Shown in pieces: positions 2,745 through 53,614 of a DNA stretch of 53,614 nt. The DNA comes from Bacteroidaceae bacterium (GTDB lineage Bacteria > Bacteroidota > Bacteroidia > Bacteroidales > Bacteroidaceae). Under the pieces are notes generated by a model. It did not search any database. It saw only the letters and a program-made list of their open reading frames with translations, and had not been told where the DNA came from. Position numbers and translations under genes: made by a program. The stretch covers positions 1 through 53,614 of the forward strand of contig JAKSLT010000005.1 in NCBI GenBank assembly GCA_024401055.1, read 5' to 3'. Numbering within the stretch: position 1 is the stretch's first letter; each line of letters starts with the position of its first letter.

Positions 2745-5700
2745 TTAGAACTTCACGGCGCCGAGGTTTCTGTCCACGAGCATGCCGTCCACGGCTTTCA
2801 GCGTCCACTTGCCGGCCTTCTTGGCGCGGAATTTCAGGACGAAGAGTTCGGGGGCGCCTTCGTCGAGAAGGGTGCTCTGGCCCACGTTGACAAAAGTGGG
2901 GAGGAGTTCCTTCTGGCCGTTGGAGTGGAGACGGTCGTTGGTGAGGTTATGCATGTCCTTCATTCCGACGAGTTCCATACCGAGGTACTCCATTTCGTCG
3001 GTGTTGTAGGGCAGGCCGAAGGAGAGGGCGTTGACGTAGTGCAGGCCTTCGCCCTTCACAGTGATGCGCAGCTCGTCGCCGGCTTTCCAAGTCTTGGCGG
3101 AGGGCACGAGAACGAGGCTGCCGCTCACCTTGTCGGCGGAGTTCTCCACGCCGCCTTCCAGTTCGGTGGCCACAAGGCTGATGTCCTGTGCATCAATGAG
3201 CCCGTTCTTATTCACGTCGCCGACGCTCACGTAGTCATAGTCGGAGTCCACGGTGCGCAGGCCGGTGTAGTTCATGTAAGACGTGAGGTCGTTGTCGTCG
3301 ATGCGCTTGTCGCGGTTGATGTCACCCTGGAGCGCAATCTCGGTGTCGGGCTGGCGATAGACGTACATGGCCTCGCCGCTGCCGAAATTGCCCACGGCCT
3401 CATCCACGTGCAGACGAATGTAGCGCACGGGCTGAAGAGAGTTGACAGTTGACAGTTGGCAGTTGATGGTTTTCACGTCGCCGCTCTTTTCCCACTGGAA
3501 AGCCTGCGGCTCTGTCCAGTTCTCGCGGTCGGCAGACACCTGCCATGTGCCGCGGAGGAGAGTTCCGTTGCCGGCATCGTGGCGGGGCTGGTATTCAATG
3601 CGGTCGAGGCTGACGAGTCCGCGGAGGTCGAGCGTCATGTCGAAGGGTACGGCCTCGCCCTTGCCCCACTTGCTGTGCCAGGAGGTCTTGCCGTCGAAAT
3701 CAAAAAGTTTCTGCACCTCCGTGCCGGGCTGGTCCTCGCAGGTGGCGCTGGCCTTGATATTCCTTACGGCCCATTTGTAGGGGTCAGCAGCGGTGGTGGC
3801 CGTCATTTCGGCCCACTCGCCGGCACCGTCCAGGTTGACGGGGCGCACACGGAAGGCATACTCCGTCTCTGGCGTGAGGTCGTTGAAGGCCAACTGCGTG
3901 CCGGCCACGGTGTAGGTTCTGCCCTGGAAGTCCACGTCGTAGTAGTCGGCACCTTCCACGGCCTGCCAACTGGGCGTCAGGGTGTAGGCGCCGGGAGAGT
4001 TGATAGTTGACAGTTGACAGTTAATAGTTGACAGTTTGCCGTGGCTCTTGAGGCAGGGGTCGGCGGGTTGGCTGTCGGCCCAGCCGTTCACGGTAAGTTC
4101 TATGGCGTTCTGCGTGATGTCGGTCTCGGGCACGCTCACTACGATGCGGCTGGGGGCCTTCACCTTCAGTGTCTCGCTGAAAGTTTCAGCCATAGGCGCG
4201 GCCTCGTACTGCCATTCGGCCTTCACTTTCTTGCCGCCCACCTTCACGCTGATGCTCTTCGGGGCCTGTGTGGCGTGGATGAAGAACTGCGTTTGCTTCC
4301 TGGGCTGGAAGCCTTCGTAGCCTCCCTCCGTGGCAGCCACTTTCACCACCACCTTGCCGCCCTCTTGCTTCATGTTGAGGGCCGTGCGGGTGCATTCGCC
4401 GCCGAGGTAGGCCTGTGTGCGGCCGTCGTCGTCGTATTCCGAGAAGGAGCTCTCGCCGCCGGGGAAGATTTCGTATGCACGGTAGTCCTTCGGTGCCCCT
4501 GCGGGGTTGTTGTGGGCACGTGTCTTGGGGATGATGGCACCGCGCTTGGCGAATACGGGGAGTTTCCAAAGGGGAGCCTCAAAACCATTGATGATGCGGC
4601 CGCCCTCATAGCGCTCGCCGGTGTAATAGTCGTACCACGTGCCTTCCGGCAGGTAGATGCCGTGGCGCACGTCGTTGCCCTCATCGTCGGCCGCCGTGTT
4701 CTGGTAGATAGGGGCTACCAACAGCGAGGAACCATACATGAACTGGTAGCGTGTCTGCGTGCCGTAGGTGAAATCGTTGGGGTAGTCCAGGAACATGGCG
4801 CGCACCATCGGCTTGCCGTCCACGGCTTCGCGGGCTATGCTGTAGGTGTAGGGCATAAGCGCCGACTTTTGCTTCAGATACCAGCGGTTGATGCTCGTAG
4901 CGGGCTCGCCGAGGCCTTGCGGATACTTCGGGTGCGAGCCCCAGCCGTCCATGTTGAGTTCCATCGGCGTGTAGGTCTTCCACTGATATTCCCTGACGTT
5001 CACGGGAAGGTTCTTGCCGCCGAAGATGCCGTCCACGTCGTTCGTGATATTCGGCTGTCCCGAGAGGCCGCTGCCGATGAAGGTCGGGATATGGTAGCGG
5101 ATGTATTCCCAGTTGCCGCCCGTCTGGTCACCGGTCCAGATGCCGGCGTAGCGCTGCGTGCCGGCCCATCCGTCAACGGAGATGATGAAGGGGCGCGCGT
5201 CGGCTCCGTAGTAAGGCATCACCTCTCCCACGTCCGTCACGCCGTTCAGACCGAAACTGTAGCCGGCTCCCACCCATGCCACGTCAGTCTTCAGGACGCG
5301 CACACCGGCGTCTCTCACCTCTTTCACTATATCGCGCTGCAACAGGGCCTCCACGCCTTCCTTCGGGTGCAGGTCGCTCTGCGTCCAGAGTCCAACCTCC
5401 ACGCCTCTCGAGCGGGTGTATTCGCCGAAGCGGCGCAGGTTTTCTATGTTGCCGTCAAGCGTGGAGTCCTGGCCGTAGCCCGTGGCGTAGCCGTCGTTGG
5501 GAAGTATCCAGCCCAGCGGCATGTCGTTGTCCAGGTAGCGGTCCACTACGCCGCGGGCCGAGAACTGGTAACTGCCCTCCTTCTCGCCGTTCAGCGTCTC
5601 CTTCACGCCGCCGTTGTCCTTCTGGCTCTCGGCGTAGCGCTTGCCGTCCTCAAACACCATGTTGCCCTTCTCGCTCTCCGTCCAGTAGTCGCGGTTGTAG

Positions 5701-8272: not shown

Positions 8273-8281
8273 GTTTTTTTA

Positions 8282-8316
8282 GTTGATAGTTGATAGTTGA
8301 CAGTTAATTGTTATCA
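8282..8316. repeat. Heptanucleotide array in the 5' leader of the AGE epimerase
   Basis: There are five 7-bp units (GTTGATA, GTTGATA, GTTGACA, GTTAATT, GTTATCA) between the epimerase promoter (8327-8334) and its start codon at 8272. Nearly the whole 5' untranslated region is the array. Confidence 0.8.
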
Positions 8317-8326
8317 GATTCTGGCG

Positions 8327-9212: not shown

Positions 9213-9758
9213 ATGCGCATCATCACCGGCAAATACCGCGGGCGCCACTTTGACGTGCCCCGCACCTTCAAGGCCCGCCCCACCACCGACTTTGCCAAAG
9301 AGAATATCTTCAACGTCCTGCGCGGCTACCTCGACTTTGAGGACTGCCGCGCCCTCGACCTCTTCGGCGGCACGGGCAGCATATCCCTGGAGCTCTTGAG
9401 CCGCGGCTGTACCCGCGTGGTCACCGTGGAGATGGACCGCCAGCACTTCCAGTTCATCCAGCGCTGTGCCCGTACGCTGGACGACGAGGCATGGCTGCCC
9501 CTCTGCGGCGACGTGTTGAAGTTCGTGCCGCGCTGCCGCGAGCAGTTCGACCTCGTCTTTGCCGACCCGCCCTACGCGCTGGAGCAGCTCGCCGCACTGC
9601 CCGATATGGTAATGGGCAGCACATGCCTTGCGCCCGGCGGTCTCTTTGTGCTGGAGCACGGCAAGGAGCATTCCTTCGCCGACCACCCCCTCTTCGTTGA
9701 CCACCGCCAGTATGGCAGTGTGAACTTCTCTCTCTTCAAGCGCCCCGATGGTCAGTGA
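9213..9758 (+). CDS. rsmD: 16S rRNA (guanine966-N2)-methyltransferase RsmD
   Basis: RsmD methylates G966 (E. coli numbering) of 16S rRNA using S-adenosylmethionine during small-subunit assembly. The 181 residues are full length for the family. The start MRIITGKYRGRHF is typical. The SAM-binding loop DLFGGTGSISLELLSRG spans about 49-65, and the catalytic N6/N2-methylase motif DPPY follows VFADPPYAL at about 115. The last codons overlap the start of the RecD-like gene by 11 nt, so the two are translationally linked. Confidence 0.95.
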   Translation: MRIITGKYRGRHFDVPRTFKARPTTDFAKENIFNVLRGYLDFEDCRALDLFGGTGSISLELLSRGCTRVVTVEMDRQHFQFIQRCARTLDDEAWLPLCGDVLKFVPRCREQFDLVFADPPYALEQLAALPDMVMGSTCLAPGGLFVLEHGKEHSFADHPLFVDHRQYGSVNFSLFKRPDGQ

Positions 9759-11412
9759 ACAAATCGCCGACCTCATCGGCTCCCACCTTCCCTTCACCCT
9801 CACGCCCGAACAGCGTGAGGCCGCCCTGCGGCTCGGTGCTTTCATTGCCGACCCGCGCAGTGAGCGGTGCTTTGCCCTACGCGGCTATGCCGGCACGGGC
9901 AAGACGAGCCTCATCGGTGCGCTGGTGAAGGTGCTGAAGGAGGCGGAGATTCCCGTCGTGCTGCTGGCCCCCACGGGCCGTGCCGCCAAGGTGTTCTCGC
10001 TCCACGCCGGTGCCCCCGCCCACACCATCCACCGCATCATCTACCGCCAGGAGACCTTCCGCGGGCAGGACACGCCCTTCCAACTGGCGTTCAACAAGCA
10101 AAGGCACACCGTTTACATCGTGGACGAGGCCTCAATGATAGCCTCCGGCACCGGCACGATGGGCGACAGCCTCTTCGGCAGCGGCGAACTCCTCGACGAC
10201 CTCATACGCTACGTCTTTGAAGGCGCCGGCAACCGCCTCCTCCTCGTGGGCGACACGGCGCAGTTGCCGCCCGTCGGCGAGGACGAGAACCCCGCCCTCC
10301 AGCGCGACGTACTCCTCGGCTACGGCCTCCTCGTGAGCGGCATGCAACTCACGCAGGTGGTGCGCCAGGAGGAGCAGAGCGCCGTGCTGGAAAACGCCAC
10401 AGCCCTACGCACGGCCATCGCCGCCGTGCAGGCAGAGGCCGCCACCCTCCACGCCTCCGCCGCCGGCATCCCCGTGGCCCTGCCCCCCGTTACTTTCGGC
10501 GGCGAAGTGGAGCGCATGCCCGGCAATGAGCTCATCGAGGCGCTCTACGACGCCTACGGCGAATACGGCACGCAGGGCACCATCGTAGTGACGCGTTCCA
10601 ACAAACAGGCCAATATATATAATAATGGTATCCGCGCCCGCATCTTCGACCGCGAAGAACCCCTCACCCGCGGCGACCTCGTAATGGCCGTGAAGAATAA
10701 TTATTACTGGTTGAAGCCCGAGCCCAGCCAAAGCCCAACCTCCAGCCCCTCCCCGTCGGAGCCACCTTCGGTGCTCCGCCACCCCTCCCCCTGCAGGGAG
10801 GGGGAATTACCCCTAAAGGAAGCAAGCGAACCTTCAACCGCAGGAGCATTCTCCCCCTCCCTGCAGGGGGAGGGGTGGCAGGGTGCCGCAGGCAGCCCTG
10901 ACGGGGAGGGGCTTGGGGAGAGGCTGGAGAGCCCTGGAGCGCAAGCCGGCTTCATCGCCAACGGCGACGTGGCCGAAGTCACTCATTTCCGCAACGAGCA
11001 CGAGCAGTATGGCTTCCGCTTTGCCGACGCCACGCTTTATTTCCCCGACTACGACGAAGAAGTGGAGTGCCGCGTGATGCTCTCCACGCTCCAGAGCGAG
11101 AGCCCCTCCCTCACCCACGAGGAGCAGAGCCGCCTCTACGAGGCCGTCCTCGCCGACTACGCCCACCTGCCCTCCAAGCGCGAGCGCCTCAAAGCCGTGC
11201 GCGAGGATCCCTACTACAATGCCCTGCAAATAAAATACGCCTACGCCGTCACCTGCCACAAGGCCCAGGGCGGCCAGTGGCCCCGCGTCTTCGTGGATCA
11301 GGGCTACATAGCCCCCGAAGCGCAGGACATCTCCCACCTCCGCTGGCTCTACACCGCCTTCACCCGTACCACCGACAAACTTTTCCTCATAAACTGGCGC
11401 CCCTCCCCATAA
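9748..11412 (+). CDS. RecD-like ATP-dependent helicase (AAA/UvrD-type) with in-frame palindromic element
   Basis: This is a DNA helicase of superfamily 1 related to RecD, with 554 residues. Walker A is GYAGTGKTS (46-54) and Walker B is IVDEASMI (about 129-136). The motif LLVGDTAQLPPVG and the C-terminal UvrD_C_2 segment TCHKAQGGQWPRVFVDQGY are present, followed by AFTRTTDKLFLI. Between NYYWL and GFIANGDVAEV, a junction that looks contiguous within the domain, about 57-60 extra residues rich in Pro, Ser and Gly are encoded by a 170-bp palindromic element (10744-10913). The helicase motifs on both sides remain in frame, so the insertion appears tolerated as a surface loop. Confidence 0.88.
   Translation: MVSEQIADLIGSHLPFTLTPEQREAALRLGAFIADPRSERCFALRGYAGTGKTSLIGALVKVLKEAEIPVVLLAPTGRAAKVFSLHAGAPAHTIHRIIYRQETFRGQDTPFQLAFNKQRHTVYIVDEASMIASGTGTMGDSLFGSGELLDDLIRYVFEGAGNRLLLVGDTAQLPPVGEDENPALQRDVLLGYGLLVSGMQLTQVVRQEEQSAVLENATALRTAIAAVQAEAATLHASAAGIPVALPPVTFGGEVERMPGNELIEALYDAYGEYGTQGTIVVTRSNKQANIYNNGIRARIFDREEPLTRGDLVMAVKNNYYWLKPEPSQSPTSSPSPSEPPSVLRHPSPCREGELPLKEASEPSTAGAFSPSLQGEGWQGAAGSPDGEGLGERLESPGAQAGFIANGDVAEVTHFRNEHEQYGFRFADATLYFPDYDEEVECRVMLSTLQSESPSLTHEEQSRLYEAVLADYAHLPSKRERLKAVREDPYYNALQIKYAYAVTCHKAQGGQWPRVFVDQGYIAPEAQDISHLRWLYTAFTRTTDKLFLINWRPSP
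10744..10913 (+). repeat. Full palindromic element inside the RecD-like gene
   Basis: This 170-bp element starts AGCCCCTCCCCGTC and ends in the exact inverse GACGGGGAGGGGCT. Each half contains an internal hairpin (GGAGCCACC-TTCG-GTGCTCC on the left, CAGGGTGCC-GCA-GGCAGCCCTG on the right) and a CCCCTCCCCCTGCAGGG segment. The middle is unique. It is the reverse complement of the copy at 12150-12319, with only three differences by eye. Confidence 0.92.
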
Positions 11413-11478
11413 AGCAAAAAACACTCCCTACTCACACTCTCTTTACCATTTCATTGCGTCCCCACCTTAAGGGTAAAT

Positions 11479-11539
11479 TCCCCTCCCTATGGGGGAGGGG
11501 TGGCAGAGCACCGAAGGTGGCTCTGACGGAGAGGGGCTG
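11479..11539 (+). repeat. Half-length palindromic element
   Basis: CCCCTCCCTATGGGGGAGGGG followed by a GAGCACC-GAAG-GTGGCTC hairpin and GACGGAGAGGGGCT. This matches one half of the elements at 10744 and 12150. It is intergenic, 17 nt before the glycosyltransferase start. Confidence 0.8.
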
Positions 11540-11555
11540 CAGGTTACCATATTCC

Positions 11556-12812
11556 ATGAAAATACTCCTCATCGGCGACTACAGCAACGTCCACGCCACC
11601 CTCGCAGAGGGCTTGCGCACCCTCGGCCACGACGTCACCGTCGTCAGCGACGGCGATGGCTGGAAAGACTATCCCCGCGACATTGACATACGGCGCCCCA
11701 GCCTCGGACGCTGGCAGTCGTTGCGCTACTATCTCCGTCTCCGCCGCCTCTGGCGCACACTGCGCGGCTACGACGTCGTGCAACTCATCAACCCCGTCTT
11801 CCTTCCCCTGCGCGCCGAGCGCATCTGGCCGTTCTATGAAAGTCTGCGCCGCCACAACGGCAAGGTATTCATGGGCGCCTTCGGCATGGACCACTATTGG
11901 GTGAAGGCCGGCACCGACTGCCACACCTTCCGCTACTCCGACTTCAACCTCGGCCCCACCCCGCGCACCGACCTCCCCGAGAACGCCCTCTTCATCGCCG
12001 ACTGGCTCCACGGCCCCAAAGGCCTCCTCAACCGGCGCATCGCCGCCGACTGCGACGGCATCATCGCCGGCCTCTACGAGTACTACGCCAGTTATGAGAA
12101 ATACTGCCCCCAAAAAGAGAAGCTGACGTTTATTCCGTTCCCCATTAAAAGCCCCTCCCCGTCAGGGCTGCCTGCGGCACCCTGCCACCCCTCCCCCTGC
12201 AGGGAGGGGGAGAATGCTCCTGCGGTTGAAGGTTCGCTTGCTTCCTTTAGGGGTCATTCCCCCTCCCTACAGGGGGAGGGGTGGCGGAGCACCGGAGGTG
12301 GCTCCGACGGGGAGGGGCTTGGAGCCAGGCCGGAGGGGGTAGTTTTCTTCATCGGCATCCAGCGTTCCCGCTCCGCCTACAAAGGCACCGACATCATGCT
12401 CCGCGCCCTGGAGCGCGTGGAGAAGGAACTGCCCGACAAGGTACGCGCAGTTCGCGTGGAGAGCGTGCCCTTCGCCGAATACCGCAAACTCATGCTCGGC
12501 AGCGACGTCATCCTCGACCAGCTCTACAGCTACACGCCCGCCATGAACGCCCTTGAAGCGATGTCGCAGGGCCTCGTCGTGGTGGGCGGCGGCGAACCTG
12601 AAAACTACGCCATCCTCGGCGAGGAAAGTCTCCGCCCCATCATCAACGTAGAGCCCGACGAAGAAAGCGTATATGAGGCCCTGCGCGACCTCGCCCTCCA
12701 CCCCGAGCGCCTGCCCCGCCTCAAGGCCGACACCCTCGCCTACATCCACCGCCACCACGACCACCTCAAGGTGGCGCAGCAATACCTCGACTTCTGGACA
12801 AAAGAAAAGTGA
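11556..12812 (+). CDS. GT-B fold glycosyltransferase with in-frame palindromic element
   Basis: This is a 418-residue glycosyltransferase, probably GT4-like and cytoplasmic or peripheral to the inner membrane. I start at ATG 11556 because MKILLIGDYSNVHATLAEGL is a typical GT-B N-terminus; the open frame further upstream is a shadow of the helicase gene. The C-terminal donor-binding region includes NALEAMSQGLVVVGGGEPENYAI (about 330-352), the usual E-x7-E-like site. Residues about 199-255 (SPSPSGLPAAPCHPSPCREG onward to GSDGEGL) come from a palindromic element and interrupt the linker between the two Rossmann-like domains, immediately before VVFFIGIQRSRSAYKGTDI. Acceptor and donor sugars are unknown. 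Confidence 0.85.
   Translation: MKILLIGDYSNVHATLAEGLRTLGHDVTVVSDGDGWKDYPRDIDIRRPSLGRWQSLRYYLRLRRLWRTLRGYDVVQLINPVFLPLRAERIWPFYESLRRHNGKVFMGAFGMDHYWVKAGTDCHTFRYSDFNLGPTPRTDLPENALFIADWLHGPKGLLNRRIAADCDGIIAGLYEYYASYEKYCPQKEKLTFIPFPIKSPSPSGLPAAPCHPSPCREGENAPAVEGSLASFRGHSPSLQGEGWRSTGGGSDGEGLGARPEGVVFFIGIQRSRSAYKGTDIMLRALERVEKELPDKVRAVRVESVPFAEYRKLMLGSDVILDQLYSYTPAMNALEAMSQGLVVVGGGEPENYAILGEESLRPIINVEPDEESVYEALRDLALHPERLPRLKADTLAYIHRHHDHLKVAQQYLDFWTKEK
12150..12319 (-). repeat. Full palindromic element inside the glycosyltransferase gene
   Basis: This 170-bp copy has the termini AGCCCCTCCCCGTC and GACGGGGAGGGGCT; with one more matching base on each side the inverted termini are 15 bp (12149-12163 and 12306-12320). 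It is opposite in orientation to the copy 1.2 kb upstream, shown by the unique central spacer, and about 98% identical to it. The host frame stays open. Confidence 0.92.
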
Positions 12813-13349: not shown

Positions 13350-15002
13350 AATAATCTTTTTACCGTTCACGATGCTAATACCTCTCACGGCACCCTTCAC
13401 GCCACGTCCCATAAGGTCATAAGCTACAGGGCTCTCCCCCTTGGGGGAGCTGGAGGGGGCTTTTATTCCTTCCGTCTCCTCCACGACAATCTTCCATGCT
13501 TTCACTCCACTGCCCAGAGTCTTGGCATCAATATACCAGCGCTGGGGTTTGAGTACCACGCTCGCGCTGTTGGCTTGCATCAGGCGGCCGCCACTCAGGG
13601 CGTAGTAGCCGTTGGCAAACATATCCGTCTTCTCGGTGTAGATGCCCGTGATGGTCAGCTCGTAGTTGCCGAGGGCGGAAGTGCATGTCATGCTGTTAAC
13701 CTCCGCAGCCTCCAGCGTCTTGTTCGTGAGCGCAAGCGTCTTCGTGCCGGTGCTCTTGGCGCGGATGAGGTAAGGATGGTTGGCCAGCGTGCTGCCCGCC
13801 TCAAGTTTCTCCACCACGAGGTTCATGCGGTCGCAGTCCCCGTCGGCGTTGTCGTCATACTGCGCATAAGTAGAAATCTCCGCAATGTCAAAGTAGTCCT
13901 TCCACTCATTATAGTTCAGCGAGAAGGGCACGTAGAGCGCCTGCCAATCCGTATTGTTGAAGGTGCGGGTATAGGCTACCTCGTCGTAGTCAGTAGCCGT
14001 CGAGGAAACGTATTCCTCGCCATCGGTAATGGTAGTGCTCGCCACAGCATCTTCCACAATGATAAATTTCTTCCAATAGTCTTTAGCAGCATAAACATCC
14101 TTATAGCCTTTTCTCACGTGAAGTGTACCATATTCGCTGAAAGTGTAAGAACTTATTGTTTGCGGCACAGTTGCTAAATTGGTGACGGAGGTAAGGCCGC
14201 TGCATCTATCGAAGGCATAGTTTCCTATGCTCGTCACGCTGCCGGGGATGGTAATGGAGGTCAGGCCGTCGCAATTATAGAAGGCATAGTTTCCTATGCT
14301 CGTCACGCTGCCGGGGATGGTAATGGAGGTCAGGCCGTCGCAATTACAGAAGGCGTAGTTTCCTATGCTCGTCACGCCCTCGGGGATGGTGACGGAGGTC
14401 AGGCCGCTGCAATTTTGGAAGGCTGAGGATCCTATGCTCTCTACGCCGTTTCCTATGGTGACGGAGGTCAGGCCGCTGCAATCGAAGAAGGCATAGTTTC
14501 CTATGCTCTCTACGCCGTTTCCTATGGTGACGGAGGTCAGGCCGCTGCATAAAGAGAAGGCAAAGCCTCCTATGCTCGTCACACCCTCAGGGATGGTGAC
14601 GGAGGTCAGGCCGCAGCAATAACAGAAGGCTGAGGATCCTATGCTCGTCACGCTGCTGGGGATGGTGACGGAGGTCAGGCCGCTGCAATCAGAGAAGGCA
14701 GCTTCTCCTATGCTCGTCACACTATTGGGGATGGTGACGGAGGTCAGGCCGCTGCATAAGTCGAAGGCACCGATTCCTATGCTCGTCACGCTATAAGTCG
14801 TACCTTCGTAGGTAACCTTGCTAGGGATGACGACAGAGCCAGAGTAATTCGTTGAGCCAAAAGTCACCTCGGCATCGCCACCTAAAGCAGGGCTACCCAA
14901 AATGTTGTAATAAATTCCATCCACCTCAAAATCATAGGCAGAGGCCGCCTGCGGCAGCAGCAGGCCGAGGGCAGCGAGGAAAAGAAAAAGTTTGTGCTTC
15001 AT
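13344..15002 (-). CDS. BspA-like leucine-rich-repeat surface protein
   Basis: This is a 552-residue exported protein with a signal peptide ([22 protein letters not shown]), an N-terminal [13 protein letters not shown] segment and about nine 23-residue LRR_5 units of the form [21 protein letters not shown] (about 70-275). A C-terminal beta-rich region follows, ending in [25 protein letters not shown], which resembles type A sorting (T9SS) domains. BspA relatives are surface proteins that bind host proteins or mediate adhesion and co-aggregation. The Ser/Pro linker before YDLMGR ([12 protein letters not shown]) derives from a palindromic-repeat fragment at 13429-13464. A ~300-nt structured leader precedes the start. 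Confidence 0.9.
13429..13464. repeat. Palindromic element fragment inside bspA
   Basis: GGGCTCTCCCCCTTGGGGGA and then GCTGGAGGGGGCTTTT match a terminus of the palindromic family. It is read in frame as part of the linker just upstream of the YDLMGR sorting-like tail. Confidence 0.6.
14221..14358. repeat. Near-identical 69-bp LRR duplication
   Basis: Units 14221-14289 and 14290-14358 differ at only two positions by eye, while flanking LRR units are more diverged. This indicates recent repeat expansion within bspA. Confidence 0.85.
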
Positions 15003-18396: not shown

Positions 18397-18414
18397 GGCA
18401 AAAAAAGATAAAAA

Positions 18415-18577
18415 AGCCTCTCCCCGCCGCGGATGCTTCGCACCGCGCCACCCCTCCCCTGCGAGGGAGGGGGAGGATACTCCTGTCAACGGAGAGAAAG
18501 TCGTTCAATTGTATTATTCCCCTCCCTCGCAGGGGAGGGGTGGCGGAGTGCCGCAGGCAGCTCCGACGGGGAGAGGC
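18415..18577. repeat. Full palindromic element between recG and murF-alr
   Basis: This ~163-bp element has the termini AGCCTCTCCCCG and CGGGGAGAGGC, internal hairpins (GGATGC-TTC-GCACC and GAGTGCC-GCA-GGCAGCTC types) and paired CCCCTCCC(C/T)GC..AGGGAGG segments. It fills the recG-murF interval and extends the murF frame without stops. Confidence 0.88.
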
Positions 18578-18587
18578 CGCTGGGAGG

Positions 18588-23154: not shown

Positions 23155-23229
23155 CCCGGATGGCAATCCCGGACTGAGTCCCCCGAAACCCAACCTCCCC
23201 CCCGGGCACCAAGTCCCGAGTCATAACAC

Positions 23230-23257
23230 AAAAGCCTCCCCGCGGAGGCTTTTTTTG
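23230..23257 (+). terminator. Terminator of the PCMD gene
   Basis: AAAGCCTCC-CCGC-GGAGGCTTTTTTT: a compact G/C stem with a seven-T tail about 75 bp after the stop. Confidence 0.9.
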
Positions 23258-23665
23258 TGCCCTTTCAGTTGAAAATAGTCCCCTTTTAATTTTCACTAGT
23301 CCGCTTCTAGTTCGCACTAGTCCCCTTTTAATTCAAACTAGTCCCCTTTTAATTCGTACTAGTCCGCTTTTAATTAAAAATAGTTCCCTTTTAGTTGAAA
23401 ATAGTTCCCTTTTAATGCGAACTTTTTCCTTTTCAGCATTTCTTTCTTCCCTTTTGGTATCCCTTAAATCCCCCAGAACCTCTCTTAGTTCCCTTTCAGT
23501 TTGAATTTCTCCGTTCACAATCTTTCCTACTTCCCTTTCAGTGCTCCGCGAAAGGGAAGAAATCCGTCTTAAAAGGGAACTAGTTTGAATTAAAAGGGAA
23601 CTAGTTTGAATTAAAAGGGAACTAATTTCAACTGAATGCCGGAAAACGATTCCTAAAAGGGAACA
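23258..23665. repeat. 21-bp-period convergent repeat array, locus 1
   Basis: From about 23258 to 23430 units of 21 bp such as AGTCCCCTTTTAATTCAAACT run in one orientation. After ~120 bp of degenerate units, 23550-23665 carries the same unit inverted (AGTTTGAATTAAAAGGGAACT). The arms are complementary, so a transcript could fold into a long hairpin. On the minus strand part of it reads as heptads of IKREL type for 61 codons, but I do not call a gene. No other gene lies between 23155 and 23840. Confidence 0.88.
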
Positions 23666-23784
23666 AAGTCGGCCTAAATGCCGAAAAAGAATGGCTGAAA
23701 CGTCTCACACAGGATTTTTTGTACCTACATCTTTCATTTTTACACGCCCGCGCACGGGAAAATCCAAGAAAAACCCCGTTTTCC

Positions 23785-32014: not shown

Positions 32015-32367
32015 ACAAGGCCCGCCCCCGCCCTATCCCCCTTCCCCCTTCCAGCCCCAGGACTTCCGCCATACCCTCCCCCGCCATCCGCCACCCCTCC
32101 CCCATTGTCACACCGCCCGTCTTCAATGCAGCACCGCCCGTCCCCCATGCCTCAACGCCCGTCCTCAAAATCACAACGCCCGTCCTCAAAATCACAGCCC
32201 GCCATCCCTTTGCCGTAGCGTCCTTCCGCAGCTTCACAACAACCTTCCGCAGCTTCATAGGCACCTATTCCATATTTTCAGCGCCGGCCCATCCCGCGCC
32301 ACACCCCCATAGGGCACACCCTGCCCACTTTTGACGAACACCTCCCCCCGCGGAGGTTATTTTTTTG
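32015..32367 (+). ncRNA. Putative small RNA built of 21-nt units
   Basis: A ~350-nt stretch lies between a canonical promoter and a factor-independent terminator and contains no conserved gene. It is strikingly G-poor and C-rich. From about 32110 to 32258 it is a tandem of seven 21-nt units (CAACGCCCGTCCTCAAAATCA appears twice exactly; others are variants ending CCGCAGCTTCA). A 30-codon frame (32126-32218, MQHRPSPMPQRPSSKSQ...) reads two units as QRPSSKS heptads. The product could be a regulatory RNA or a very short basic peptide; neither is proven. Confidence 0.5.
32340..32366 (+). terminator. Terminator of the putative small RNA
   Basis: ACCTCC-CCCCGC-GGAGGT followed by TATTTTTTTG. It is similar in sequence to the PCMD-gene terminator at 23230. 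Confidence 0.85.
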
Positions 32368-32379
32368 CCCAATCCCCAT

Positions 32380-32770
32380 TTATTAGTCCCCTTTCCGTAA
32401 AAACTTCTTCCCATTTAATTCCAACTAGTCCCCTTTTAATTCAAACTAGTCCCCTTTTAATTCGAACTTCTTCCCATTTAATTCAAAATAGTTCCCTTTT
32501 AATTCAAAATAGTCCTCTTTTACTTCACCCTCCGCCTCCTTTAATTCCGACTTTTCCCCACTTGGCGCGAACTGCTTCCCTTTCGGCATTTCCTACTTCC
32601 CTTTCAGTTCAAACTTCTTCCCCCTTAATCCGAACTGCTTCCCTTTCAGCATTTCCTACTTCCCTTTCAGTTCACCCCGAAACCGAACAAGTGAAAATTA
32701 AAAGGGAGAAAGGAAAAATTAAAAGGGAACTAGTGAAAACCGAAAGCGGACACCGCCAAATTAAATCGGC
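32380..32770. repeat. 21-bp-period convergent repeat array, locus 2
   Basis: About 14 units of 21 bp in one orientation (AGTCCCCTTTTAATTCAAACT, TCTTCCCATTTAATTCAAAAT, ACTTCCCTTTCAGTTCAAACT) are followed, after GAAACCGAACAAG, by inverted units (AATTAAAAGGGAACTAGTG). It starts just after the small-RNA terminator. A 212-codon frame reads through but is only repeat translation. Positions 32771-32995 hold no recognisable gene. Confidence 0.88.
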
Positions 32771-38692: not shown

Positions 38693-40624
38693 TTACATCA
38701 CGCGGCGGAGGGTGAGGGCGCTGACGCGGGTGTGGGCATAGTCGCCGGAGAGGGGCGAGAGGGTGAGGGTGTGGCGGCCGGGGGTGAGGATGCGCAACCA
38801 GCCGAGGGGATGGAGGGCATAGGCGTTGGAAGTTACCTGTTCGTTGCGGAGGGTCTGGCCCTCATCGGTGGTAACGAGCCATTCGGCACGCTCCTCGCCC
38901 GTGGTCTCGATGCAGACCTCGTAGCAGCCTTCCTCAGCCACGTCCACGGCCCACGAGAGGCGCGAGGCGGCGGTGAGGTCGGTGGCGCTCTTCTTGAAGT
39001 TCCACTCGCCGAACTTCGTCATCCACTGGAACTTCTTCACGGCGCAGCCTTCGGCAGTGGCACGCTCGGCGAAGAGGAAGCCGGGAGAGGTGCCGCAGAT
39101 AAAAATCAGCCTCTCCCCGTCAGGGCTTCCTACGGAACCCTGACACCCCTCCCCTGTTAGGGAGGGGGATATTACTCCTGCTGTTGGGGAGGCCAATCGC
39201 TCTAATGTATTATCCCCCTCCCTAACAGGGGAGGGGTGGCGCGGTGCCGCAGGCAGCCGCGACGAGGAGAGGCTTTCTATCTCTATAACGGTGCCGAGGG
39301 GGTCGGGGGCGATGTTGGTGGGGAGGGTGAGGAGGGTCCAGTCGCCGTGACGGGACAGTTTGAGTTTCTTGTCGTGGGAAGTGCCGGAGAGGCGGGCGGC
39401 GGTGACGGGCTGGCCGAGGGTGGGAACCCACAGACGGCCGTCCTGCGGCCATTGGAAGACGATGAGATATACCTTGCCGTCGTTCACCACGGCGTCACCC
39501 CACGGCAGGGCCTGGCCCCAGGGGGAGGGGTCAGCGCCGTAGATGACCTGCGGGTGGCGGTGTACCCACTCACCGGCCTTGCGGAGCGAGGCGGCGGCGT
39601 TGGGATGTACGGAACCGTCGGCGCGCGGGCCGATATTGAGCATATAGGTGCCGCCGCGGGCTATGGTGGAGACGAGGGTGCGGACGATGTAGTCGGGGGA
39701 CTTCCACTGGTTGTCGAACTTGGAATAGCCCCAGCCCACCTGCGTCACGTCGATTCCCTCCCAGCGCCCGGGACGGTTGGTGAGGGGCACCTCCATATCG
39801 CCGAGGGTGGTGTAGTCGCCGAGGCCGTTGCCTACGCGGCTGCTGACGAGGGCGCCGGGCTGGTTGCGGCGCACGATGTCGACGAGTTCCTGTGAATAGG
39901 CGGGGGACATATTGCCGGGGGTGTCGAACCAGATGAGCTGGATGTCGCCGTAGCGCGTGGTGAGTTCCTCCACCTGCGGCACGCACTTGGTGCGGAAGTA
40001 TTCGTCGAAGGAGACGGTGCGGCCCGTGGCGTCGGTGGTGGGGCCGTTGCCGCCGCCGGGGGTTGTCCAGTCCTGGAACTGGGAATAGTAGAAGCCGATG
40101 CCGAGGCCTTCGCGGTGGCAGGCGGCGGCGAGTTCGGCCATGAGGTCGCGGTGGAGGGGCGTGGCGTCGCAGATGCTGAAAGTGCTGACGTCGGAGCGGA
40201 ACATGGCGAAGCCTTCGTGGTGCTTGGCGGTGATGACGATGTACTTCATCCCGGCGTCCTTGGCGAGTTGCACGATGGCGTCGGCATCGAATTTGTCGGG
40301 ACAGAAGGTGGCGGCCTCGGCCATGTACTCGTCGGCGGGTATGCCGGCCTGGTTATGGTTCATAAGCCACTCGGCGGCACCGTAGTAGGGACGCCCCTTC
40401 CACTCGCCTTCCATCTTGGAATAGAGACCGAAATGGATGAAGAGGGCGTAGTTACCGGAGTCGAAGAGGAAAGTAGGAGACGGACTACCCGGCCTCTCCC
40501 CGTCAGGGCTGCCTGCGGCACCCTGCCACCCCTCCCCTGTTAGGGAGGGGGAGAATACTCCTGCGGTTAGGGAGAGGGGAAGGACGAGGAGTATATATAT
40601 AAATATAATAAGGAGGCGTTGCAT
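38693..40624 (-). CDS. Secreted GH29 alpha-L-fucosidase with two in-frame palindromic elements
   Basis: This is a 643-residue exported fucosidase that removes L-fucose from glycans. The signal peptide is MQRLLIIFIYILLVLPLSLTA. The GH29 barrel begins SGNYALFIHFGLYSKMEGEW, includes ITAKHHEGFAMF, and carries the nucleophile in LIWFDTPGNM (Asp about 234). Residues about 17-45 (GVFSPSLTGEGWQGAAGSPD) and about 451-506 (SSRLPAAPRHPSPVREGDN through SPSLTGEGCQGSVGSPDGE) are encoded by palindromic elements, one just after the signal peptide and one between the C-terminal beta domain and the last domain. The start codon lies inside a 7-bp repeat array. Confidence 0.9.
   Translation of the reverse strand: MQRLLIIFIYILLVLPLSLTAGVFSPSLTGEGWQGAAGSPDGERPGSPSPTFLFDSGNYALFIHFGLYSKMEGEWKGRPYYGAAEWLMNHNQAGIPADEYMAEAATFCPDKFDADAIVQLAKDAGMKYIVITAKHHEGFAMFRSDVSTFSICDATPLHRDLMAELAAACHREGLGIGFYYSQFQDWTTPGGGNGPTTDATGRTVSFDEYFRTKCVPQVEELTTRYGDIQLIWFDTPGNMSPAYSQELVDIVRRNQPGALVSSRVGNGLGDYTTLGDMEVPLTNRPGRWEGIDVTQVGWGYSKFDNQWKSPDYIVRTLVSTIARGGTYMLNIGPRADGSVHPNAAASLRKAGEWVHRHPQVIYGADPSPWGQALPWGDAVVNDGKVYLIVFQWPQDGRLWVPTLGQPVTAARLSGTSHDKKLKLSRHGDWTLLTLPTNIAPDPLGTVIEIESLSSSRLPAAPRHPSPVREGDNTLERLASPTAGVISPSLTGEGCQGSVGSPDGERLIFICGTSPGFLFAERATAEGCAVKKFQWMTKFGEWNFKKSATDLTAASRLSWAVDVAEEGCYEVCIETTGEERAEWLVTTDEGQTLRNEQVTSNAYALHPLGWLRILTPGRHTLTLSPLSGDYAHTRVSALTLRRVM
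39108..39274. repeat. Full palindromic element inside the fucosidase gene
   Basis: This 167-bp element has the termini AGCCTCTCCCCGTC and GACGAGGAGAGGCT, internal hairpin arms (CAGGGCTTCC..GGAACCCTG) and paired CCCCTCCC(C)TGTTAGGGAGG segments. Its centre differs from the copies at 10.8 and 12.2 kb. The fucosidase frame remains open across it. Confidence 0.9.
40491..40575. repeat. Half palindromic element at the fucosidase N-terminus
   Basis: GGCCTCTCCCCGTCAGGGC, the TGCCTGCGGCA hairpin and CCCCTCCCCTGTTAGGGAGG form one half of the family, in frame directly after the signal peptide coding region. Confidence 0.85.
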
Positions 40625-45281: not shown

Positions 45282-45412
45282 GCGATGCGCCGGAAAATGT
45301 CTTGTTTTTAACCATCGTTTTGAAAATCAAGCCTCCGACAGTCCCGTTTCGGGCATTTCCGCTTCCGTGCGGGGCGGCCGCCGGATTGCTCCGCACTGTC
45401 CCCCACCCTCTT

Positions 45413-45560
45413 TGTCCCCTTTCCCTTCTTTTTTGCACTTCTTCCCTTTTAATTTGCACTAGTTCCCATTTAATTTTCACTAAAAGGGAAGTAGGAAAAA
45501 TTAAAGGAGGACTAGTGCAAATTAAAGGAGGACTGGCGGAAGCCGGAAGGGGACTGCTTC
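45413..45560. repeat. 21-bp-period convergent repeat array, locus 3
   Basis: CTTCCCTTTTAATTTGCACT and AGTTCCCATTTAATTTTCACT units are followed directly by inverted units (AAAAGGGAAGTAGG, AATTAAAGGAGGACTAGTGC). This is a compact version of the arrays at 23.3 and 32.4 kb, in the gap between the secreted pair and tRNA-Leu. Nothing else is recognisable between 45282 and 45722. Confidence 0.85.
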
Positions 45561-52879: not shown

Positions 52880-53614
52880 ATGAAGAACAGATTTTTTATT
52901 ATGCTAATGACTCTCAGCATAATAATGCCGCAAGCTATCAAGGCTTATGACTTTGAGAAGGATGGTATTTATTATAGAATTTCGGGAGATGATGTGTCAG
53001 TAACTTGCAAAAACCTATCGACACCGACATACTCTGGTAACATCCGTATTCCGTCTTCTGTATCCAATAATGGTAAAACATATAATGTGACAAGTATTGG
53101 TTACGCTGCCTTCTATTATTGCAGCGGCCTGACCTCCGTCACCATCCCTAACAGCGTAACGAGCATAGGAGACGCAGCCTTCTGGCTTTGCACAGGCCTG
53201 ACCTCCATCACCATCCCTAACAGCGTGACGAGCATAGGAAGCGAAGCCTTCCGCGATTGCAGCAGCCTGACATCCGTCATCATTCCTAAAAGCGTGACGA
53301 GCGTAGGAAAGGCTGCCTTCGCTAGCTGCAGCAACTTGACCTCTATTTATGTTCAGGCTGAAAACACGAAGTATGACAGTCGTGAAAATTGCAATGCCAT
53401 TATTGAGACTGCAAGTAACGCACTTGTTGCTAGCTGTAAAAACACCATCATCCCTAACAGCGTGACGAGCATAGGAGACGCAGCCTTCTGGCTTTGCACA
53501 GGCCTGACCTCCGTCACCATCCCTAACAGCGTGACGAGCATAGGAAAAAATGCCTTCGCTAATTGCAGCGGCCTGACATCCATTACCATCCCTAACAGCG
53601 TGACGAGCATAGGA
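52880..53614 (+). CDS. BspA-like leucine-rich-repeat surface protein (3' end beyond window)
   Basis: This is a partial gene, open to the window end (245 codons seen). The signal peptide MKNRFFIMLMTLSIIMPQAIKA is followed by YDFEKDGIYYRISG, the same N-terminal motif as the BspA-like protein at 13.3-15.0 kb. 23-residue LRR_5 units follow ([21 protein letters not shown] and similar), interrupted by a spacer (IYVQAENTKYDSRENCNAIIETASNALVASCKN) typical of BspA relatives. The nucleotide repeats in the LRR region are nearly identical. It is probably a surface adhesin. The missing C-terminus should carry the sorting-like tail if it matches the first copy. Confidence 0.88.
   Translation, partial: MKNRFFIMLMTLSIIMPQAIKAYDFEKDGIYYRISGDDVSVTCKNLSTPTYSGNIRIPSSVSNNGKTYNVTSIGYAAFYYCSGLTSVTIPNSVTSIGDAAFWLCTGLTSITIPNSVTSIGSEAFRDCSSLTSVIIPKSVTSVGKAAFASCSNLTSIYVQAENTKYDSRENCNAIIETASNALVASCKNTIIPNSVTSIGDAAFWLCTGLTSVTIPNSVTSIGKNAFANCSGLTSITIPNSVTSIG

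Follow-up and report, generated by a model that had tools for sequence, protein, structure and literature searches.

Palindromic repeats that enter protein-coding genes include the Rickettsia palindromic elements (RPE), repeats of about 100-150 bp located within the reading frames of a wide range of unrelated genes, which are not destroyed by them; orthologues can carry RPE of different groups at the same or a nearby position (PMC3767692, PMC10969869). As far as the open-licence literature was covered, protein-coding palindromic repeats are reported mainly from Rickettsia and Wolbachia (the latter judged by title alone), with intragenic repetitive extragenic palindromes (REPs) in scattered species. 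On the side of DNA repeats, the consulted parts of one study describe CGTC-tagged REPs with loops of 4-5 nt, A-T pairs at stem positions 1 and 2 and a predominance of head-to-head dimers, apparently without a dedicated transposase, and report them from Bacteroidetes and other phyla (Di Nocera et al., 2013, PMC3733652). Bacterial miniature inverted-repeat transposable elements (MITEs) such as ERIC, BOX, RUP and NEMIS are also named in the consulted parts of PMC10969869 and PMC3733652, the former of which mentions in-frame fusions. Apart from the CGTC repeats of Bacteroidetes (PMC3733652), the open-licence literature as searched yielded no coding palindromes in Bacteroidales. Here we describe a palindromic dimer of about 170 nt in a 53,614-nt stretch of a Bacteroidaceae bacterium (GCA_024401055.1, contig JAKSLT010000005.1, positions 1-53,614, forward strand; hereafter the window), which we consider likely to be a non-autonomous mobile element that is built like a REP, behaves like an RPE and is presumably translated in its host genes.

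Two copies of the element occupy adjacent genes of the window in opposite orientations, with a single unit between these genes:

9748..11412, + strand: host gene 1, an open reading frame for a RecD/Pif1-like helicase of 554 amino acids with AAA_30 and UvrD_C_2 matches
10744..10914, + strand: palindromic dimer of type A, unit spacing 106, in the helicase gene, read as SPSPSEPPSVLRHPSPCREGE...SPSLQGEGWQGAAGSPDGEG; site empty in the homologous loci L171 and L172
11475..11538, + strand: single unit between both host genes, its end 18 nt before the ATG of the glycosyltransferase
11556..12812, + strand: host gene 2, a glycosyltransferase of 418 amino acids with a Glyco_transf_4 match, placed in an alignment of 27 sequences
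12149..12319, - strand: second dimer, the reverse complement of the first (98%), lying within the glycosyltransferase gene, where it reads SPSPSGLPAAPCHPSPCREGE...SPSLQGEGWRSTGGGSDGEG; L202 and L203 have an empty site and L201 a different palindromic insert

An earlier note, made from the DNA letters of the window, had proposed two inverted, near-identical copies of equal length, and a repeat comparison of the window bears this out, the copies measuring 171 nt each with 98% complementarity. Both are stop-free in the host frame and the host domains resume behind them, as the note had also held: the helicase insert is flanked by AAA_30 (residues 18-225) and UvrD_C_2 (residues 497-548) in Pfam, while the Pfam match of the glycosyltransferase (residues 14-83) stops short of the insert, beyond which the conserved columns of the 27-sequence alignment resume. 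The suggestion that the element is ambigrammatic stands for the helicase copy, where the phase defined by the element's end is open on both strands, and falls for the glycosyltransferase copy, which is open only in the host direction. Nor is the centre unique to this pair, since six more copies from the genome align gap-free over all 171 positions at 85-89% identity; taken together, the copies other than this pair that matched over at least 160 nt are 73-89% identical in the better orientation. The 98% identity of the window copies may reflect recent transposition or gene conversion between neighbours. An Rfam scan of the window at the gathering score gave tRNA as its sole match.

Each unit measures about 75 nt and consists of a GC-rich hairpin and a small hairpin with a variable stem that bears CGTC on its outer side, the sense strand reading CCCCTCCC-loop-GGGAGGGG, TGGC, the small stem-loop and then GACGGGGAGRGGCT. 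Two units facing outward, with AGCCYCTCCCCGTC ends outside and a variable centre between them, make up the dimer, and a second type of centre, recognised by eye, recurs too. The note had likened the two facing hairpin halves to REP units and bacterial interspersed mosaic elements (BIMEs), and for the build of the dimer its comparison was apt. Among 108 units we found 22 pairs facing outward within 400 nt, 13 of which are spaced by 106 (10 pairs) or 103 (3 pairs); we refer to these as the spaced dimers. Folded as single-stranded DNA, the 171-nt copy reaches -72.1 kcal/mol, whereas shuffled sequences average -37.69 (z -11.55). Over 105 distinct units, one unit cut by a contig end having been left out, 97.9% of the paired cells hold a base pair, compared with 88.3% (maximum 89.4%) in 300 partner shuffles. 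The changes are compensatory, with six pairs of the small stem varying on both sides in at least 5 units (e.g., A-T 64/G-C 38 and G-C 57/A-T 25/T-A 21). The small stem comprises 8 pairs, a 3-nt loop and a bulge, its outermost pair being A-T in 64 and G-C in 38 units and its second pair G-C in 60, A-T in 27 and C-G in 15. Of 107 units, 98 carry CGTC next to the hairpin; in the alignment fold, two of the four tag bases are paired (pairs 27-54 and 28-53), and TGGC (GCCA on the opposite strand) is present in 91 of 107, one base off the position of a CCA-type tail.

The element is abundant in its own genome, a 2.3-Mb draft that is 83% complete. At up to 3 mismatches, the hairpin core pattern gives 124 matches, compared with 2 for a reversed-pattern control, so that the genome-wide search excludes chance as the source of the copies, which are spread over many contigs in both orientations. 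These counts rest on a single core pattern, and the 108 units examined, compared with 124 core matches, were reached both with the same core threshold in the stretches analysed and with a wider pattern plus a downstream filter. At up to 2 mismatches, 118 matches in the own genome face 4 in 60 other genomes (3 in G009, 1 in G023), a set that includes 36 congeners and has G071 outside it. With 3 mismatches allowed, G009, G071 and G007 contain 7, 14 and 3 core matches (reversed controls 3, 1 and 1); of the G071 matches, 8 stay within 2 mismatches. On these counts, the expansion is for the most part particular to this lineage, and G071 and G009 hold a few related copies. A search of viral contigs with the strict, exact element pattern returned 0 stretches.

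Movement within this lineage, as the note had supposed, is borne out by the state of the same sites in relatives. Of 57 congeners, G009 and G071 have the most similar helicases (84% and 79% identity), and both have a short linker instead of the insert in the helicase, the glycosyltransferase and the DPP-IV protein. Further afield, where the closest named helicase homologues are Prevotellaceae (Prevotellamassilia, 56%), the insert occurs in none of the best 80 of at least 594 matched helicase homologues, and distant proteins with the same residues at the same place were thus not encountered. Gene gaps give a similar picture: of 15 syntenic junctions, 14 have a gap here that exceeds its G009 counterpart by 96-695 nt. 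The comparison started from 20 hand-chosen junctions, of which 5 had no syntenic match in G009, and the one exception, L126, is longer in G009; the own gaps at L155, L156 and L162 (607-700 nt) are long enough to perhaps hold more than the element. Some flank comparisons remained without a match, for instance both flanks of an N-terminal site (L114) in G071.

Some of these sites are filled differently. The glycosyltransferase of G007 carries another palindromic insert, in frame and at the same site, pieces of which match G007 11 times, twice at the place from which the query was taken. In the helicase, the insertion site is a hypervariable linker among the 80 homologues, repeat-rich in several, and helicase linkers of other Prevotellaceae (loci L036, L045, L039 and L091) contain other inverted repeats. 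By eye, we also observed other GC-rich palindromes at this genome's element sites in a MATE loop of G009 (L281) and a U32 linker of G071 (L288). In the helicase linker of Segatella copri iA622 (L053 5937-6089, 3459-3574), a 116-nt stretch recurs inverted, 91% alike, about 2.4 kb away.

Taking as host direction of each spaced dimer the strand with the longest open frame, we found the frame in phase 0, counted from the element's own end, to be open in all 13 (spacings 103 and 106), whichever way the element is turned. Counted over both strands of the 13 dimers, phase 0 is open in 20 of 26 frames, against 7 of 52 for the other frames, and 7 of the 13 are open in both directions. Among the spaced dimers, the copies covered for this question, no intragenic copy that breaks its frame was found. 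Since the constancy of phase largely reflects what the stop codons permit, it does not alone prove that the peptide is under selection. In 9 of the 13 dimers, codon scores are at least 0 on both sides (the right flank of the U32 gene scoring 0.00), the hosts being a helicase, a glycosyltransferase, a DPP-IV protein, a U32 peptidase, a membrane protein-QueH frame, a CcsA/ResB protein, a MATE transporter, an AroE-HAD hydrolase frame and an alpha-L-fucosidase. Pfam matches lie on both sides of the insert in the helicase, DPP-IV, CcsA/ResB and AroE-HAD proteins, and the MATE protein shows two MatE stretches; matches lie solely before the insert in the U32 and fucosidase genes and solely after it in the QueH join. 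Three more spaced dimers sit near the N-terminus, in TadA, a patatin and a phosphoethanolamine-transferase-like protein. The TadA copy, whose array comes after codon 4, is likely read through; for the other two this is uncertain. The 13th spaced dimer (L114 5890) has flanks that score as non-coding. Single units also stand in frame inside the matched domains of LpxK and GH20.

In two places the element lies within a frame that joins genes separate in relatives. In G009, AroE ends in ...KIWTL*, its TGA overlapping the ATG of the HAD gene, and in G071 the two genes are apart on opposite strands; here, the stop/start overlap has given way to the dimer together with about a dozen altered bases, and Shikimate_dh_N and HAD domains are encoded in a single frame of 591 codons (575 if counted from the first ATG). 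Likewise, a membrane protein and QueH share one frame of 524 codons here, and in G009 and G071 their matches adjoin with stop codons within the joined frame. In G082 taken by itself (L319), UxuA and UxaC matches stand in one frame with another, small palindromic dimer between them. The same locus also contains a second, different palindrome inside UxaC.

With genes called by a simple codon-use caller, 70 of the 108 units are intergenic, 27 lie inside genes and 11 cross a gene edge. The outer end of the intergenic units faces a start in 46 and a stop in 24, and lies within 40 nt of a gene in 56 of the 70, compared with 1 of 70 for the inner side. This closeness follows from the outward dimers sitting in short gaps, as the G009 comparison indicates; at L142 a dimer directly follows the stop codon. 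Of the 81 units that are intergenic or overlap a gene edge, 54 have an outward partner terminus within 700 nt; among control windows without units, the figure is 185 of 1666. As 27 of the 46 start-facing ends lie 6-20 nt ahead of the start, we considered single units as regulators in 5' leaders; this idea was demoted, since dimers in short gaps, as seen in the G009 comparison, present an outward end to each gene anyway.

The window holds further copies, among them two in a third host gene:

18414..18578, strand not assigned: intergenic dimer with a type B centre by eye, its left unit degenerate
38696..40624, - strand: host gene 3, an open reading frame with a domain match for alpha-L-fucosidase (GH29), 643 amino acids
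39108..39274, - strand: dimer of type B, spacing 103, in frame in the alpha-L-fucosidase gene, past the catalytic domain match
40491..40568, - strand: unit near the N-terminus of the alpha-L-fucosidase, in frame, following a signal-peptide-like start (by eye)

Other repeats share the window with the element. Large inverted repeats at 23213-23681, 32342-32768 and 45402-45550 are formed by arrays in which a 21-bp unit (about CCCTTTTAATTCAAACTAGTC) occurs in either orientation, and short repeats of the GTTGACAGTT type occur at 3437-3483, 3995-4062 and 8278-8324. Two stretches of 69-bp repeats, at 14111-14860 and 53071-53614, are mutually inverted, the former in a gene whose product resembles what we take to be a leucine-rich-repeat surface protein.

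The account that we favour is of a non-autonomous mobile dimer that has multiplied in this lineage, entering genes as well as the narrow gaps between them. The spread would have passed through a folded single-stranded or cruciform intermediate, by the action of a putative transposase. Insertions that broke genes would have been lost, and, as each strand mostly has one stop-free phase, the intragenic survivors would be the phase-fitting copies, situated in linkers, loops and termini; there, the insert would be translated as a flexible linker. Copies in gaps may lose the centre and one end, leaving the many single units beside starts and stops.

Several observations weigh against this account. 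The 13 of 13 phase result is partly one of construction, since the host direction was chosen by the longest open frame, and 4 of the 13 spaced dimers are N-terminal or intergenic, their translation being uncertain. Taken unit by unit, just 7 frame rows have a coding score above 0 for both flanks, a low yield because the partner unit often occupies the flank; the two expected frames account for all 7. Other frames are often open in single units as well (sense 47, 39 and 100 of 108; antisense 98, 81 and 61). The phosphoethanolamine-transferase-like frame (L114) enters a copy in another phase at its 3' end and stops inside, and a copy in a TonB receptor (L143) seems to switch phase in its second half. 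At the AroE/HAD site about a dozen bases are replaced, which is not a clean insertion. The covariation fold was taken from the same alignment that it is measured on, and the shuffle ignores relatedness. Finally, the Y1 genes of the own genome include no identified transposase for the element, and a target-site duplication, sought at aligned junctions, was nowhere convincing, the target linkers and gaps being too variable.

Two rivals concern the mode of movement, and we hold both to be unlikely. One, suggested by the earlier note, is a classical REP/BIME (REPIN) moved by a REP-associated tyrosine transposase (RAYT) encoded in the same genome; the dimer of CGTC-tagged hairpins would suit it, as would four full-length Y1_Tnp matches in the genome (L156 2913-3365, L167 at about 1541-1882, L168 and L169). 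Yet none of the four genes adjoins the element in this 83% complete draft: the stretches around three of them lack a core match and the fourth is about 6 kb from one, and three are bordered by other recurring repeats and the fourth (L167) by an inverted repeat seen by eye. Moreover, two genomes with a similar dimer, G082 and G083 (52 and 51 match rows, see below), show just partial Y1_Tnp matches, the loci around which lack the G082/G083 palindrome. As all these genomes are drafts, the transposase gene may be missing from view. The RAYT link finds no support here.

The other, of similarly low probability, is a MITE moved by a DDE-type insertion sequence with the same ends. Like a MITE, the element has terminal inverted repeats, AGCCYCTCCCCGTC...GACGGGGAGRGGCT at the spaced dimers, with a variable interior and no gene of its own; no target-site duplication was seen at the aligned junctions, where the targets are variable, and its inner hairpins with compensatory changes are REP-like. 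No parent insertion sequence was found, though no search for one was made: outward pairs were sought up to 400 nt, with no search for a longer element sharing these ends.

We regard it as very improbable that the insert is present in the DNA and absent from the protein, being cut from the RNA or bypassed by the ribosome; its very stable fold would favour such removal, but diverged copies keep one phase open, for which a skipped insert would have no need. That the copies are low-complexity coding linkers or assembly noise, as the hypervariable and in places repeat-rich helicase linker might hint, we consider next to impossible in view of the genome-wide number of copies with covarying stems, on many contigs and in both orientations, and of the empty congener sites.

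Set beside the described systems, the mobile dimer that we propose works like an RPE and has its nearest DNA-repeat kin in the CGTC-tagged REPs, and we count it as a member of neither family. The comparison with RPE is one of description and behaviour, made on the consulted parts of the literature. As with RPE, a many-copy palindromic repeat lies in frame in many unrelated, seemingly intact genes, the orthologues of which lack it, and a different palindrome is found at the same glycosyltransferase site in a relative (G007), with other inverted repeats in the helicase linkers of Prevotellaceae; the parallel with Rickettsia drawn in the earlier note is thereby upheld. The element differs from RPE in belonging to another phylum, in being a GC-rich dimer of 170 nt (its 171 nt are slightly above the RPE range given in the consulted part of PMC3767692) that is used in both orientations in the same end-defined phase, and in its two joined frames. 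With the CGTC REPs, as portrayed in the parts of PMC3733652 consulted, it shares the CGTC beside the hairpin (98/107), the 8 stem pairs, the occurrence of intragenic copies and the absence of an attached transposase; as those REPs likewise lack a dedicated transposase, the transposase question is common to both. Its loop of 3 nt with a bulge, its stem ends without fixed A-T pairs at positions 1-2 and the direction of its dimers, whose tags point outward (which we take as tail-to-tail, an order rare for CGTC REPs), distinguish it from these REPs; in addition, two tag bases pair in its consensus fold and each unit has a second, larger hairpin. To BIME/REPIN it is linked by the inverted pairs of tagged hairpins and set apart by the lack of a tie to the Y1 genes of its genome.

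A second palindromic family in the Prevotellaceae behaves similarly. The insert of the helicase linker L045 gives 52 and 51 match rows in G082 and G083 (both strands counted) and represents a different palindromic dimer. We examined 20 copies, including the two helicase sites that led there. In 19 of them the longest frame reads a peptide of the PSPxLSLVGRG... type (by a loose match), and in 15, by manual count, both peptide halves are present (the other being PLPTRE- or like); 14 of the 20 open reading frames that carry the copies have a Pfam match. Three pairs of loci share a site between the two genomes. For a Cys/Met PLP enzyme (L321/L323), nucleotide identity is 1.000 in the element versus 0.920 and 0.862 in the left and right flanks; for an M24 peptidase (L310/L316), 0.895 versus 0.714 and 0.824; and for a helicase (L306/L307), 0.828 versus 0.784 and 0.824. 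In two of these three pairs, a small number, the nucleotide identities suggest constraint on the DNA itself or conversion, and in the third not clearly so.

A broader view, which we put forward tentatively as a possibility short of an even chance, is that Prevotellaceae hold several distinct families of palindromic dimers selected both as mobile hairpins and as readable peptides. These would serve as recurrent, ready-made linkers that repeatedly settle in the same protein linkers and gene junctions and weld genes together (AroE-HAD and membrane protein-QueH here, UxuA-UxaC by another palindrome in G082), their DNA then changing more slowly than the surrounding host codons. If several such families exist in Prevotellaceae, the invasion of proteins by hairpin DNA would be a route taken repeatedly, one that is not peculiar to intracellular bacteria with reduced genomes. 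The empty, filled and differently filled sites in close relatives make the effects of the insert on the protein testable, and the joined frames suggest how fusion proteins can arise through small repeats.

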